A stretch of DNA of 64,000 nt. Source: Candidatus Gastranaerophilales bacterium (lineage in GTDB: Bacteria; Cyanobacteriota; Vampirovibrionia; Gastranaerophilales; Gastranaerophilaceae). Each line of letters opens with the position of its first letter. Position 1 is the stretch's first letter. The DNA is taken from assembly GCA_944325665.1 (NCBI GenBank), contig CALVAY010000006.1, forward strand, positions 1 through 64,000, written 5' to 3'. The position numbers and the translations under genes were made by a program. Shown here piece after piece: positions 42,722 to 60,739 of this stretch. Below the pieces are notes generated by a model. That model did no database searches. It was not told the origin of the DNA and worked only from the letters and a program-made list of their open reading frames with translations.

Positions 42722-42727
42722 AGTAAA

Positions 42728-42733
42728 ATTCTA
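42728..42733 (-). promoter_or_regulatory. Leaderless -10 box of rlmN
   Basis: Minus-strand TAGAAT, 6-base spacer, ATG. It faces the divergent HD-GYP gene across 68 bases. Confidence 0.5.
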
Positions 42734-42777
42734 ACATAATCATACAAATAGCGTGTGGCTTTTTTTAAAAAGAAGGT

Positions 42778-42783
42778 TATAAT
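42778..42783 (+). promoter_or_regulatory. Leaderless -10 box of HD-GYP gene
   Basis: TATAAT, 6-base spacer, ATG at 42790. No Shine-Dalgarno site in the spacer; no convincing -35. Confidence 0.5.
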
Positions 42784-42789
42784 TTTAGA

Positions 42790-54421: not shown

Positions 54422-56284
54422 GTGAATTTTTACAAGAATCCCCACAATGCATCAAATCAATCGGGAGAAACACACTCCAAAAGCGAAGATTCAAAGTTGA
54501 GTGTATTGTTCTCTAACCCGATATCCGCACAAAAAGCAATGGTGCAAAATAACAGGACAAGTGCCAATAGGCTTTACGGTGGCTATTCTTCAAACCTAAA
54601 CACGAAAAATCTTAACATTAACTATAAGCAAACATTAAAAATAATTAATGAAGCATTGGGGCAAAAAACGGATTTAGGACAGTTTTTCTACATGCTTCAC
54701 AACATTTTATCTGCTAATATGCAGGCTAACTTTAGTGCAATCGGCTTATTAAACGCACAGTCAAACTGTATTAATGTAAAATTAATAGATAAAATCGGCT
54801 CAATTTATAATACAAAAATTATGTTAAATGACGACACTAACCCTCTAATTAAGTGTTATTTAACAAAAACAATACAAAATTGCCAAGATAACAAATTCCT
54901 AAGAGCAAACTATCTTAACAGCTCTCCTTGTATTATCTTACCTCTTGTAGCTTTTGGCGAATGCTTAGGTGTATTTATAATCGGCGACAGCCAAGCAAAC
55001 AGCTGTATTGAGCTTTATCAATTCTTATCAAATTATATGGCAATTTTTGTTCAAAACAGAAATCTTGCCGAACTTGTGGATAAAAATACCGATATTGACT
55101 CCTTAACGGGTCTTGCTAACCACAAGTGCTTCCAAGAAGAACTTATAAGACAAATTGACGGTTGCAGCAAAACAAATTCTCCTGTGTCCGTTTGTATATT
55201 TGACGTATTGAACATTTCTCAAATTAACAGAGAATTCGGACATGCAAAAGGTGATGAAATCATCAAAACTGTTGCCAAAAAGATAAAACAAAACATCAGA
55301 AATACAGACTTTGCGGGTCGTTACGGCGGCGATGAAATAAGTATAATTATGCCCAACACCGGAGTAGATGAGGCTAAATACATCGCCGAATACTTATCTT
55401 ACGCATTATCTTGCGTACTTATAGACGATGTTGGCCCCGTTAAGTTAAGCTGCGGTATTGCAACATACCCTCAAACATCAAAAGACCACGAAAAACTTGT
55501 ACTTTTAGCAGAACAAGCAATGTATATCTCAAAGAGCAAATGCTACGAAACAGGCAGCTGTGTAATTGTAACATCTGAAGATTACAATTTCTGGGATGAC
55601 GAGGCCCTAAAATGCTTTGCGGAAGTATTAACCAAAAAGCATGCTCAAATCGGTGTTGATTTTGAAGAAGAATTAATCCATAAATTCCACAATGAACAAA
55701 TTTTATCAAGTAAACACATGCTTGAAGTTGTTACCTCTCTTGCAGGTACAATCGATGCTAAAGACCCATACACAAAAGGTCATTCAAGCCTTGTATCAAG
55801 ATACTCTGAGGCTCTTGCAAGAGCAATTCATCTTCCCGAAGCTGAAGTTGAACGCATAAAATTAGGCGCATTGCTTCATGACATCGGCAAAATCGGTATT
55901 CCGGAAAACGTATTAAGAAAACCTGCTATGCTTGATGATGATGAGTGGGAAATTATGAAGCAGCACCCTGTAATAGGCGCAGATAAAGTATTAGCACCTA
56001 ACGAATCTCTAAGAGATTTAATTCCGATGGTTAAATATCACCACGAACATTGGGACGGAACAGGTTATCCTTGCGGCTTAAAAGGTGAAGAAATACCGCT
56101 TAATGCAAGAATAGTATCAATTGCAGATGCTTACCACGCACTTGTTTCAGACAGACCCTACAGAAAAGGTTTAAGCGTTGAAAAAGCTTGCGAAATCCTA
56201 AAACTTGGTGCAGGCGTACAGTGGGATAAAGAACTTGTAAGACAATTTATAGTAATTGCTCCAAGCCTTTCAACTACTGTTTAA
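54422..56284 (+). CDS. GAF-GGDEF-HD-GYP cyclic di-GMP turnover protein
   Basis: 620 residues, no membrane segment. A GAF-like domain (about 80-215) precedes a GGDEF domain (about 225-385) with the intact core RYGGDEI and an inhibitory I-site RNTD five residues before it. A linker (about 385-435) leads to an HD-GYP domain (about 440-610) with LLHDIGKIGIPENVL, KQHPVIGA and HHEHWDGTGYPCGL, all canonical. Both synthesis and degradation look possible. Start is GTG at 54422 with GGAAGG well placed. Its stop overlaps that of the convergent glycosyltransferase by four bases. Confidence 0.93.
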   Translation: MNFYKNPHNASNQSGETHSKSEDSKLSVLFSNPISAQKAMVQNNRTSANRLYGGYSSNLNTKNLNINYKQTLKIINEALGQKTDLGQFFYMLHNILSANMQANFSAIGLLNAQSNCINVKLIDKIGSIYNTKIMLNDDTNPLIKCYLTKTIQNCQDNKFLRANYLNSSPCIILPLVAFGECLGVFIIGDSQANSCIELYQFLSNYMAIFVQNRNLAELVDKNTDIDSLTGLANHKCFQEELIRQIDGCSKTNSPVSVCIFDVLNISQINREFGHAKGDEIIKTVAKKIKQNIRNTDFAGRYGGDEISIIMPNTGVDEAKYIAEYLSYALSCVLIDDVGPVKLSCGIATYPQTSKDHEKLVLLAEQAMYISKSKCYETGSCVIVTSEDYNFWDDEALKCFAEVLTKKHAQIGVDFEEELIHKFHNEQILSSKHMLEVVTSLAGTIDAKDPYTKGHSSLVSRYSEALARAIHLPEAEVERIKLGALLHDIGKIGIPENVLRKPAMLDDDEWEIMKQHPVIGADKVLAPNESLRDLIPMVKYHHEHWDGTGYPCGLKGEEIPLNARIVSIADAYHALVSDRPYRKGLSVEKACEILKLGAGVQWDKELVRQFIVIAPSLSTTV

Positions 56285-57069
56285 TCCTTCAGATAATTAA
56301 GTTTTGTGTTTAAATCAAGGTGTTTTGCATTCTTTTTGAAAATGCTGCTTTTGTATATGCCAAGTTTTGCAAAAAAGTAGTCAATGCTGACTTTTAACAC
56401 TTGAAAACCGTATTTTAGCGACCTTTTAAAGTTAATAGAGCTGGCATCGGGGAAATATTTGGTAGGACAAGAAATTTCGCCAATTTTGTAGCCATAATAA
56501 AAGATTAACGCCAAAATTTCATTATCAAAAATAAAATCGTTATCGCACTGTGCCAAAGGCAAATTCCTGAGAACTTCTGCACTAAAAGCACGAAAACCGC
56601 TATGATATTCGGATAATTTGTTTGAAGTTAAAATATTTTGAAAAGTTGTTAAAAATTTATTTGCCAAGAACTTATACAGTGGCATTCCGCCTCTAAGAGC
56701 AGAGTTAGTAAGCATTCTTGAAGCAATAACAGCGTCATACTCACCAAACGCAATCATTGAAGCCATTGCGGGAATTAACTTTGGCGTGTATTGATAATCA
56801 GGATGAAGCATAACTACAATATCCGCTCCTTCCTGCAAGGCTGCAATATAGCAAGATTTCTGATTAGCACCGTATCCAAGGTTGCACTCGTGCAATACTG
56901 TTGTTATACCAAGACTTTTTGCTATATTTATAGTGTCATCGCAAGAGCAATCATCAACTAAAATAACCTTATCAACAATACCTTGATAAATTTCGCCAAA
57001 AGTTTTCTCAAGGGTCTTTTGAGCGTTATATGCAGGCATTATTACAACAACTTTTTTCGAGTTAATCAT
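56281..57069 (-). CDS. Family 2 glycosyltransferase
   Basis: 262 residues of the GT-A fold: VVIMPAYNAQKTLEKT at the start, a nucleotide-sugar site VDDCSCDDT (about 38-46), GYGANQKSCYIAAL, VMLHPDYQYTPKLI and the acceptor loop SGFRAFSAEVL. It resembles the dolichol/polyprenol-phosphate sugar transferases but lacks C-terminal membrane segments. Donor and acceptor unknown. Probably leaderless, sharing the promoter core with the divergent TPR gene. Confidence 0.87.
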   Translation of the reverse strand: MINSKKVVVIMPAYNAQKTLEKTFGEIYQGIVDKVILVDDCSCDDTINIAKSLGITTVLHECNLGYGANQKSCYIAALQEGADIVVMLHPDYQYTPKLIPAMASMIAFGEYDAVIASRMLTNSALRGGMPLYKFLANKFLTTFQNILTSNKLSEYHSGFRAFSAEVLRNLPLAQCDNDFIFDNEILALIFYYGYKIGEISCPTKYFPDASSINFKRSLKYGFQVLKVSIDYFFAKLGIYKSSIFKKNAKHLDLNTKLNYLKD

Positions 57070-57075
57070 ATATTT

Positions 57076-57127
57076 ATTTTAAAGAGAAATCAAATAAGTT
57101 GCAAATGTCAAAATATAAAACTATAAT
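57076..57127. promoter_or_regulatory. Symmetric divergent promoter with one shared -35
   Basis: Minus -10 TAAAAT (57081-57076), 17 bases, palindromic TTGCAA (57099-57104), 17 bases, plus -10 TATAAT (57122-57127). Each -10 is exactly 6 bases from its ATG (57069 minus, 57134 plus). The single TTGCAA can serve as -35 for either direction. Confidence 0.7.
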
Positions 57128-57133
57128 AATGTT

Positions 57134-58816
57134 ATGGATTCACAGGAAGAAAACTCTTTAGATTACATAAAAAAGTCTTTTGAGCTTAAAAATTCAAAAT
57201 TATACAAAGAAGCTATTGAGATGCTCTATAAAGCTCTGGAGTTTGAAGAAGGAAGGGCAAACGCTGAGATAATTTCTCAAATAGGCGATTTATACACTCT
57301 TTTAAAGAACTATGATAGAGCCTTAGAAGAGTACGAAAAAGCTCTTGATATAGACAAAAATCATCTTCATTCGCTTGAGCAAATAAGTGAGTTGAACTTT
57401 GCTTTGGGCAATTACGCAAAGGCTCTTGAAGCGTCCAAAAAAATCATTGAAGCAACAAATGATGTAAAATATTTCATTTCTCACTTTGAGATACTCTTTA
57501 AGCTTGGATATTTTGACAAATTAAAAGAAATGTATGAAGGCTTTGATGATAATTTAAAAAATAATCCTCAAATTCTTTATATTTTATCCAAAACAGGAAT
57601 TTATCCAAAAAAAGAACTTTTAAAAAGAGCTGTTGAGGCTGATTTTAACTTTACAAAGGCAGTCTTTGACCTCGCTGTTGAATACTTTAACGACGAAGAG
57701 TACGCAAGTGCAAAAGAACTCTTCAAACACGTCGTTAAGCAAGAAGAAAATTCTTTAGCTTATTACTACATCGGTGCAATAGAGCATATCGAAGGGCACT
57801 TCTTTGAAGCAATTGACGCCTACTTAGACTGCATTAAGCTTGATAAAACAAACGACAAGTGCTGCTTTGAGCTTGCAAAGGCGTATATTGACATCAACTG
57901 GCTTGAAGAAGCACAAATCGCAATAAAAAGCTCAATAGGAATTTTAAAACTAAAAGATGAAAAGTCCTTAAAGCTTGATGAACACCACTTTTTACTGGCT
58001 TGGATATTGTCAAAAGAGGGAGATGATAAAAATGCCCTCCTGTATTTGGATTTAATCGAAAAAGATTCAAAAATGTATCCCAACGCGCAAATTCTAAAGA
58101 ATACGCTTAGTTTGACATCTGATAATTACATAAAAGCAAAAGAAATTCTTGAAAAATATTATACTCAAAATGAGGAAGACGCTAAGAACCCGATTTTAAT
58201 AGAATCTTTAGGTAAAATATATAAAAATTTAAAGCTTTACAAAGATGCAATAAATTTGTATGAAAAAGCCCTTGAATTCTTCCCGAACTCGGTTTTCTAT
58301 GCTCTTGAACTTGTTGATATATTAATTGATGACAAGCAATATGATAAGGCTTTAGCATTAGCGAAAGATTTAGAAGTAAGAGCACCAAAATGCCCAAGCA
58401 CCTATAACTCTTTTGCAAGAATATATTACAGACTTAAAAACTATGATGCGGCAATTGAAAACTTAAAAATATTAAACCAAATGGACATAAATAATGCCGA
58501 GGGCTTCTATTTCTTAGGACTTATTCAAAATGACATCTGCCAAGCACAAGCCGCACTTGAAAACTTTAAAATCGCACTAACCCTAAACCCCATGCCTGCA
58601 AAATACTACGCACAGGCATCAAGAGCCTATGAGACAATGGGTGATTTAGAAAATGCGATGTTATACATTAAAGAAGCTATTGAAATTGCACCTGAAGAGA
58701 TTAACTACAAAAGACAGGCAAAAAATATCGCTCAAAAAATGGGTGATGAAGAAAAAACAAGCTTCTATCAATCTCAAATTACAAGAATGGAGCAGCTTTT
58801 AAGGCAAAGAGGTTAG
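57134..58816 (+). CDS. Large tetratricopeptide repeat protein (560 residues)
   Basis: Cytoplasmic all-helical protein with about a dozen TPR-type repeats along its length (ISQIGDLYTLLKNYDRALEE, YFLGLIQNDICQAQAALENF, YYAQASRAYETMGDLENAML). No signal peptide or enzyme domain. Probably a scaffold. It shares a divergent promoter core with the glycosyltransferase gene and its stop overlaps the convergent U32 peptidase gene by four bases. Leaderless translation likely. Confidence 0.85.
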   Translation: MDSQEENSLDYIKKSFELKNSKLYKEAIEMLYKALEFEEGRANAEIISQIGDLYTLLKNYDRALEEYEKALDIDKNHLHSLEQISELNFALGNYAKALEASKKIIEATNDVKYFISHFEILFKLGYFDKLKEMYEGFDDNLKNNPQILYILSKTGIYPKKELLKRAVEADFNFTKAVFDLAVEYFNDEEYASAKELFKHVVKQEENSLAYYYIGAIEHIEGHFFEAIDAYLDCIKLDKTNDKCCFELAKAYIDINWLEEAQIAIKSSIGILKLKDEKSLKLDEHHFLLAWILSKEGDDKNALLYLDLIEKDSKMYPNAQILKNTLSLTSDNYIKAKEILEKYYTQNEEDAKNPILIESLGKIYKNLKLYKDAINLYEKALEFFPNSVFYALELVDILIDDKQYDKALALAKDLEVRAPKCPSTYNSFARIYYRLKNYDAAIENLKILNQMDINNAEGFYFLGLIQNDICQAQAALENFKIALTLNPMPAKYYAQASRAYETMGDLENAMLYIKEAIEIAPEEINYKRQAKNIAQKMGDEEKTSFYQSQITRMEQLLRQRG

Positions 58817-60627
58817 GCCTTTTTAACTACCATTTCACAATTTTTACAATCAAAAAACAGCTCCAGTCTGTCATTATTTTCGTTAATCAAAAAAAGTTTC
58901 TCGCTTGTGTTTGTTTTTTTATCCTTCAAACACATATTTAAAGCACGCCTTATGCAGTGTTTTGTCCTCATAAGCTCGGCTTTGTCGATATTTTTTAAGC
59001 TCTCAAAAGACATTTGCTCAGGCACAAGAGAACATTTCTTGTAAAATTCCTTAGCACAGTTGTTGTGAACATTTAGTCGATAGTCATTATTTGAGCAAGG
59101 ATAAGGCGAAGGGCTGATTTTTCTTTTTGGTCTATTCAGGCGCTTTTTGTTATACTCATCAAGTCTTTTTTGCATTAACTTTTCAAATAATTCACGCCTT
59201 AGTGAGTTAATTTCCGAAATTTTTAAGAAAGGAATTTTATCCTCTTGAAATATAATTTCGTCAAAGTAAAAATCGCTCTGTCTCGTTTTTTTCATCTGGT
59301 TAATAAATATCTCTTTTGATTTTTGAGGATTGTTTGCAAATTCTACCTTACCAAAAGGCATTTTTAGCTCAATTAAATCCTCGTCAACAATTTTAACCTC
59401 ATTTGAATTCACAAAAAGTGTGGCTCTAATTTGCCTTTTTGTTTTTGATTTCTTTAATTTTGAATCAAATTCGCTGTCAAAATTTCTAAAAATATTTTTA
59501 CCCAATATATTTTTTAACTCTTTATTCGGATAAATTCTTACAAAGTCTTTATTTTTTTCAACCCTGTTAACCAAAAAACCGAGGACACTTTTATCAAAGT
59601 AACATAAGCCGTCTTGAGGATTAATTTCAAGGTTTGTTTTAACATCAATATATTTATTTGCTACATTAACTACCTTGCCAAGTTTTTCTCCTATATGTCC
59701 GCTTGATTTAAAGTTAAATATATCTTTATTTTTATCATCCAAGAAATATGTACAAAAACCGCGATTAAAGGTTTTATTTACATCCGGTATAAAATCATAG
59801 TTAACCTTACCTGATGAAATTCTTTTTCTGTCCTTAAGTGCTAAATTAAAAGCGCTTACAACATTTTTTATGTAATTTTCATCCTTTAATCTTCCCTCAA
59901 TTTTAAAAGACACAACCCCCGCGTCAACTAAATCATCAAGATAAGGTAGAGCGCAGAAGTCTTTAAGGCTTAACAGGTGCATATCTTTTGCGTAAACTTT
60001 TCCAAGATTATTTACAAGAGTATATTTTTTTCTGCAAGGTTGAGCACACTCACCCCTGTTTGCAGAGCGAGAACCTAACTTTGCACTTAAATAACACTGT
60101 CCGCTGTAACTAACACAAAGCGCACCAAAAACAAAAGTCTCAACTTCTATATTCGAACAGGAGGTAATTTCTCTAATTTGCTCTAAAGACAACTCTCTTG
60201 CCAAAATTACTCTATCAAGACCCAAATTCTCAAAAAATTTAACCTTGTTTTTATCCCTTATATCGCACTGTGTACTTGCTGAAATTAAAAACGGGGGTAA
60301 ATCCATGTTAAAGATTGCAAAATCCTGAACTATAATACCGTCAACACCCGCGTCCCAAAGCCCATACAGGAGCTTTTGCACATCCCCTAATTCTTCATCT
60401 TTTAAAATTGTATTTATCGTTACATAAACTCTTGCAAAAAATTTATGGGCATAATTTACAACCTCTTTAATATCATCAAGAGAATTTGCCGCTCCTTTTC
60501 TTGCCCCAAAATTACCCGCACCAATGTATATGGCATCAGCACCATATTCTATTGCGCACATTGCACAGTTTTTATCTTTAGCGGGCGCAAGCAGTTCCAG
60601 TTTATTATCTTTAAAAGCATTTACCAT
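58813..60627 (-). CDS. U32 family peptidase/RNA hydroxylase-like protein
   Basis: 604 residues from the ATG at 60627 (a TTG three codons upstream is less likely). The family core is clear: ELLAPAKDKNCAMCAIEYGADAIYIG, a glutamate-rich region, and the cluster-binding cysteine set around CYLSAKLGSRSANRGECAQPC. Characterised relatives (RlhA, TrhP) hydroxylate cytidine or uridine in rRNA or tRNA; true protease activity is doubtful. The C-terminus has extra cysteine pairs (near SLVPEQ and LFFDCKNCEM). TATAAT lies 11 bases before the ATG. Confidence 0.88.
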   Translation of the reverse strand: MVNAFKDNKLELLAPAKDKNCAMCAIEYGADAIYIGAGNFGARKGAANSLDDIKEVVNYAHKFFARVYVTINTILKDEELGDVQKLLYGLWDAGVDGIIVQDFAIFNMDLPPFLISASTQCDIRDKNKVKFFENLGLDRVILARELSLEQIREITSCSNIEVETFVFGALCVSYSGQCYLSAKLGSRSANRGECAQPCRKKYTLVNNLGKVYAKDMHLLSLKDFCALPYLDDLVDAGVVSFKIEGRLKDENYIKNVVSAFNLALKDRKRISSGKVNYDFIPDVNKTFNRGFCTYFLDDKNKDIFNFKSSGHIGEKLGKVVNVANKYIDVKTNLEINPQDGLCYFDKSVLGFLVNRVEKNKDFVRIYPNKELKNILGKNIFRNFDSEFDSKLKKSKTKRQIRATLFVNSNEVKIVDEDLIELKMPFGKVEFANNPQKSKEIFINQMKKTRQSDFYFDEIIFQEDKIPFLKISEINSLRRELFEKLMQKRLDEYNKKRLNRPKRKISPSPYPCSNNDYRLNVHNNCAKEFYKKCSLVPEQMSFESLKNIDKAELMRTKHCIRRALNMCLKDKKTNTSEKLFLINENNDRLELFFDCKNCEMVVKKA

Positions 60628-60739
60628 ATAAAACAAATATTATACACAAAATATCGTCCGAGTGAATTATTTAACAAAACACACCTTTTTTGATAATATA
60701 TAGATTATATTTACATATAAAGAAAGTTGATAAGAAAAA

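Follow-up and report, generated by a model that had tools for sequence, protein, structure and literature searches.

Two predicted leaderless promoters sharing one palindromic −35 hexamer in a 64-base divergent gap of a Gastranaerophilales genome

The window analyzed here is a 64,000-nt stretch from the genome of a Candidatus Gastranaerophilales bacterium, a relative of cyanobacteria that lives in the gut (contig CALVAY010000006.1, GenBank assembly GCA_944325665.1). At 57070-57133, 64 bases separate the minus-strand CAT of a glycosyltransferase gene (57067-57069) from the ATG of a TPR-protein gene at 57134. Read directly, this gap consists of 6 nt, ATTTTA, 17, TTGCAA, 17, TATAAT, and 6 nt, exactly as an earlier note had laid it out between the two ATGs (6/TAAAAT/17/TTGCAA/17/TATAAT/6). 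We put at roughly 80% the probability, judged from sequence comparisons, that real leaderless promoters of the sigma70 type stand here as a back-to-back pair with one shared −35 (Table 1). The palindromic TTGCAA is spaced for both −10s and is conserved, and the note's proposal of leaderless promoters on a shared palindromic −35 in a minimal gap is backed by 14 genus gaps, by spacing controls and enrichment in the family, by a class of leaderless promoters in this genome, and by recurrence elsewhere.

Table 1. Genes and predicted promoter elements at and around the divergent gap (positions in the window).
Feature	Position	Strand	Remarks
Family 2 glycosyltransferase gene, 262 aa, related to polyprenyl-phosphate sugar transferases	56281..57069	−	predicted leaderless
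Predicted glycosyltransferase transcription start, A of ATG	57069	−	inferred from 6-nt −10-to-ATG distance
Glycosyltransferase-side 6 nt	57070-57075		between CAT and ATTTTA
Putative −10 TAAAAT of glycosyltransferase gene (ATTTTA on plus)	57076-57081	−	invariant in 14 distinct genus gaps
Minus-promoter spacer, 17 bp	57082-57098	−	length fixed, sequence varies in genus
Putative shared palindromic −35 TTGCAA	57099-57104	either	invariant in 14 genus gaps; 17/17 enriched vs spacing controls
Plus-promoter spacer, 17 bp	57105-57121	+	length fixed, sequence varies in genus
Putative −10 TATAAT of TPR gene	57122-57127	+	invariant in genus; leaderless TATAAT promoter also in other genera
TPR-side 6 nt	57128-57133		between TATAAT and ATG
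Predicted TPR-gene transcription start, A of ATG	57134	+	inferred
TPR-repeat protein gene, 560 aa	57134..58816	+	predicted leaderless

Both genes are single-gene units closed by convergent neighbors, a GGDEF/HD-GYP gene (54422-56284, +) at the end of the glycosyltransferase gene and a U32-peptidase-family gene (58813-60636, −) at the end of the TPR gene. The gap is thus the natural site for both promoters, and both must lie there unless one is hidden within the opposite coding sequence. The two ATGs are the earliest possible starts of their reading frames, and both proteins align with their orthologues from residue 1. A Shine-Dalgarno (SD)-like sequence is absent at both starts, as expected of leaderless genes; throughout the window's genus the glycosyltransferase gene likewise lacks one, as does, by reading, the TPR gene. 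On each side the −10 ends 6 nt before the start codon, the distance typical of leaderless genes, and the 17-bp spacer falls within the 16-18 bp of sigma70-type promoters, with consensus matches of 10/12 and 9/12. The departures are in TTGCAA, which agrees with TTGACA at only 4/6 positions, and in the minus-strand −10, which is TAAAAT. A minus-strand TTGACA at 57106-57111 was considered as the true −35 and rejected: it is 24 bp from TAAAAT, which is too far, and is not conserved among relatives. Also rejected was a riboswitch or other non-coding RNA, an Rfam search of the region having given no matches at E≤1.

Promoters of this kind are not confined to the one gap. Counted by distance from ATG in this genome, TATAAT has its maximum at exactly 6 nt upstream (11 occurrences, the average position having 1.0), which is the TANNNT geometry reported for bacterial leaderless genes (PMC3160421). 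Across the window's genus and related ones in the family, ~3-6% of the candidate ATGs look leaderless, ~40% have SD-like sequences ahead of them, and TTGC is found 16-18 bp from 10.7% of leaderless −10s against a background of 1.4% (window's locus excluded). These figures, like the counts that follow, are rough, as candidate starts and orthologues enter them repeatedly. Leaderless promoters seldom have exact TTGCAA (5/206, with the window's locus again excluded). TTGACA occurs in none of 108 leaderless-type promoters in the window's genus vs. 9 of 98 in other genera of the family; in the window's genus the −35 of such promoters seems to favor TTGC over TTGA.

Where both sides of a divergent gap have a leaderless-type −10, the gap is 60-68 bp long in 9 of 14 cases from ~2 Mb of sequence sampled, although these represent only about four loci. 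Stretches of ~2 Mb from many genomes served for such comparisons. The window has a second divergent leaderless-type pair, rlmN (−) and an HD-GYP-like gene (+), with a 68-bp gap (42722-42789) in which TAGAAT and TATAAT are each 6 nt from an ATG. It has no shared TTGCAA, and a conserved ACACRC-like stretch lies near its middle; the same pair has gaps of 67-68 bp in genus members L059, L066, and L069. Possible 30-bp divergent gaps in L065 and L068 have one −10 per direction and almost nothing between, with starts that are perhaps misassigned.

The 64-base arrangement is not due to chance. The core pattern has a single match in the window and none in 100 dinucleotide shuffles of that sequence. The search that the earlier note had called for, for TTGCAA centered between two −10s at 17 bp, was run over 146 genomes of the family as ATWWTA-17-TTGCAA-17-TAWWAT and found 35 places in 29 genomes, a count that includes orthologues and reduces to about a dozen independent loci; a few of these matches are probably noise or coding. 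With the same hexamers, control spacings of 13/13 and 21/21 gave 5 and 1 places. Unequal arms of 17 and 18 bp, both orders together, occur in 38 places and 18/18 arms in 12, against ~10 predicted from the 35 and 38 if arms are independent. Each arm therefore favors the 17 bp that polymerase itself favors, with no added preference for mirror symmetry; special selection for exact symmetry was rejected on this series.

Within the genus, every close orthologue in the 15 genomes (14 of 15) retains the gene pair, and TAAAAT-17-TTGCAA-17-TATAAT is present in all 14 distinct gaps. The gap is 64 bp in 11 of them and 65 bp in three, in which the TPR start is one base further from TATAAT (a 7-nt arm). 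Among the 11 gaps of 64 bp, all 18 hexamer columns are invariant vs. 22 of the other 46 (Fisher p=3e-5); the three longer gaps carry the same hexamers and 17/17 spacing. By comparison, third codon positions of the glycosyltransferase gene are 54% identical in the genus. Half of the spacer columns (17/34) are also invariant, so extra signals, for example an operator, are possible, and the flanks of TTGCAA are conserved, every genus member having GTTGCAAAT.

The shared −35 arrangement appears, from its sequence distribution, to have arisen separately elsewhere. Besides the window's locus, the 17/17 family matches that could be placed are spread over roughly a dozen independent gaps between unrelated divergent genes, many with at least one ATG 5-9 nt past a −10 and two with both. 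When the complete mirror pattern, both ATGs at 6 nt included, was sought in 84,980 GTDB genomes, 16 stretches matched: ten glycosyltransferase/TPR orthologues (a genus match in Candidatus Galligastranaerophilus intestinavium among them), one not linked to genes, and five unrelated pairs of divergent ORFs whose ATGs are exactly those predicted. The five are a dicarboxylate symporter with an unknown gene and a racemase with a pentapeptide protein, both in Treponema; a ZIP transporter with Fur in Saccharibacteria; a hydrolase with a GDSL lipase in Clostridiales; and one pair in a further bacterium.

The plus-strand half of the arrangement extends beyond the genus. In the upstream regions examined (L250-L269), the TPR gene has a leaderless TATAAT-type promoter in six genera (g1, g37, g3, g27, g22, and g39), with protein identity of ~40-48% outside the window's genus. 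The promoter is mostly TTGCAN-17-TATAAT with the ATG 6-10 nt further on; its −35 is TTGCAA in g1, g37, most of g27, and g39, TTGCAT in g3, TTGCAC in one g27 genome, and TTGAAT in g22. Its neighbors differ. In g39 a GDP-L-fucose-synthase-like gene takes the place of the glycosyltransferase gene, with a single TTGCAA common to both sides at 17/17, so that in two genera the palindromic −35 of the TPR gene is used by different partners. The sister genus g37 keeps the glycosyltransferase/TPR pair in an 88-bp gap, with TTGCAA for the TPR gene and, for the glycosyltransferase gene, an apparently separate −35, TTGCCA; several g27 genomes have a longer gap holding two TTGCAA copies; and in g3 the TPR gene directly follows HD-GYP, with no divergent neighbor.

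Most of the glycosyltransferase orthologues sampled outside g1, g37, and g17 are SD-led, so the start type of this gene differs where it sits in a compact gap. Since no close orthologue was found in g3 genomes, its loss there is as likely as its insertion between HD-GYP and TPR elsewhere. The g17 gene (L023, L033) is also leaderless-type with a divergent neighbor; with so short a distance between the two −10s, the promoters would interlock and not share a −35. Two g22 orthologues (G057:C9:26083-26838 and G107:C11:47641-48378) have in-frame stop codons within the match, which suggests decay.

If the arrangement does not reflect two promoters on one −35, TTGCAA could conceivably be the operator of a dimeric regulator, lying between two −35-independent promoters (extended −10 or activator-dependent), with its 17-bp position incidental. 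Operators are often common to divergent genes, and a perfect palindrome with flanks conserved in all genus members (GTTGCAAAT) would suit one; this is nonetheless distinctly unlikely, because the family counts track polymerase spacing (17 over 18, and far over 13 or 21), TTGC is enriched 16-18 bp from ordinary leaderless −10s, the g3 TPR promoter keeps TTGCA-17-TATAAT though its hexamer TTGCAT is non-palindromic, and the pattern recurs with unrelated genes and in other phyla. Coincidental hexamers in AT-rich sequence, with transcription from elsewhere, are extremely improbable. AT-rich gaps are full of such hexamers, and the surrounding 2 kb has 14 promoter-like sites vs. 6.7 in shuffles, but the empty shuffles (0/100), genus invariance, spacing controls, and recurrence all argue against this.

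A further possibility accepts the two promoters but has their symmetry selected as a polymerase-orientation switch, making expression of the two genes mutually exclusive or balanced in ratio. Steric exclusion is expected at a 65-bp start-to-start distance, the 17-bp arms are invariant in the genus, and competition does occur in bidirectional promoters once one direction is activated (Warman 2026, PMC12825309). Such selection is nevertheless unlikely: mirror arms are not favored beyond independent arms (35:38:12), the genus gap may be either 64 or 65 bp, g37 separates both promoters, the TPR partner changes between genera, and E. coli basal bidirectional promoters work without competition (PMC12825309). 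The special status that the earlier note gave to exact mirror symmetry finds no support in these comparisons, given that 17/18 arms are enriched, 18/18 arms occur at about the independent-arm rate, three genus gaps are 65 bp long, and g37 has separate −35s.

For two leaderless promoters on a shared −35, each would give a leaderless mRNA beginning at the A of its ATG. TTGCAA reads the same on both strands, so a polymerase could place its sigma region 4 on it in either orientation, with a −10 17 bp off each way. The 65 bp between the predicted starts fall short of the footprint of the polymerase holoenzyme (about −55 to +20), so from steric geometry one polymerase at a time would be expected to occupy the gap. 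Bidirectional promoters of E. coli lacked the basal strength to compete and did so only with one direction activated (PMC12825309), so the suggestion of mutually exclusive or balanced expression is a guess. The main benefit is probably compactness, as this would be the shortest gap holding two complete promoters; the preponderance of 60-68 bp among doubly leaderless divergent gaps makes it the simplest one. The plus half may be an old leaderless TPR promoter, whose palindromic −35 neighboring genes came to use.

Ordinary back-to-back divergent promoters are two promoters facing apart in one intergenic gap; here, by contrast, both −35s would coincide fully in a single palindrome, which keeps the gap to its minimum. 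Known bacterial bidirectional promoters have a shared symmetric −10 and divergent starts 7-25 bp apart, with preferred separations of 10, 18, and 23 (PMC10268837, PMC12825309). The present arrangement resembles these Warman/Grainger promoters in that a symmetric core element, often between divergent genes, serves two polymerase orientations; that class blocks simultaneous binding, and the same steric principle would apply at 57070-57133. It differs in that the shared element is the −35, each direction having its own −10, and the predicted starts are 65 bp apart. As the −10s (57076-57081 and 57122-57127) do not overlap and the starts are outside the 7-25 bp range, the gap is not a member of that class, and its authors place separate divergent promoters outside it (PMC12825309, PMC10268837). 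Both genes resemble the TANNNT leaderless genes of Zheng et al. (2011, PMC3160421), in which the −10, ~12 bp before the start codon, sets the transcription start at that codon, with no SD and a similar share of genes. That survey was of single genes, unlike the two here that would share a promoter core, and it filed Cyanobacteria under atypical signals, not leaderless genes. The open literature yielded no clear precedent for divergent promoters with a shared −35, a weak negative, as subscription papers were mostly outside the search and the wording is hard to search.

It is possible, if doubtful, that promoters with a shared palindromic −35 are a distinct, recurrently evolved class, in which orientation at one sigma-4 site couples two genes and the palindrome is a ready-made half for new neighbors. 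Earlier work on bidirectional promoters has centered on symmetric −10s; a recurring −35-sharing class would allow a clean test of orientation choice, because docking at a single site could lead to melting at either of two independent ones, with no confusing leaders. For a gene landing beside a palindromic −35, it would mean cheap gain of a promoter, and 64 bp would be the shortest intergenic gap able to serve two genes, which may bear on promoter annotation in streamlined, AT-rich genomes of uncultured bacteria.
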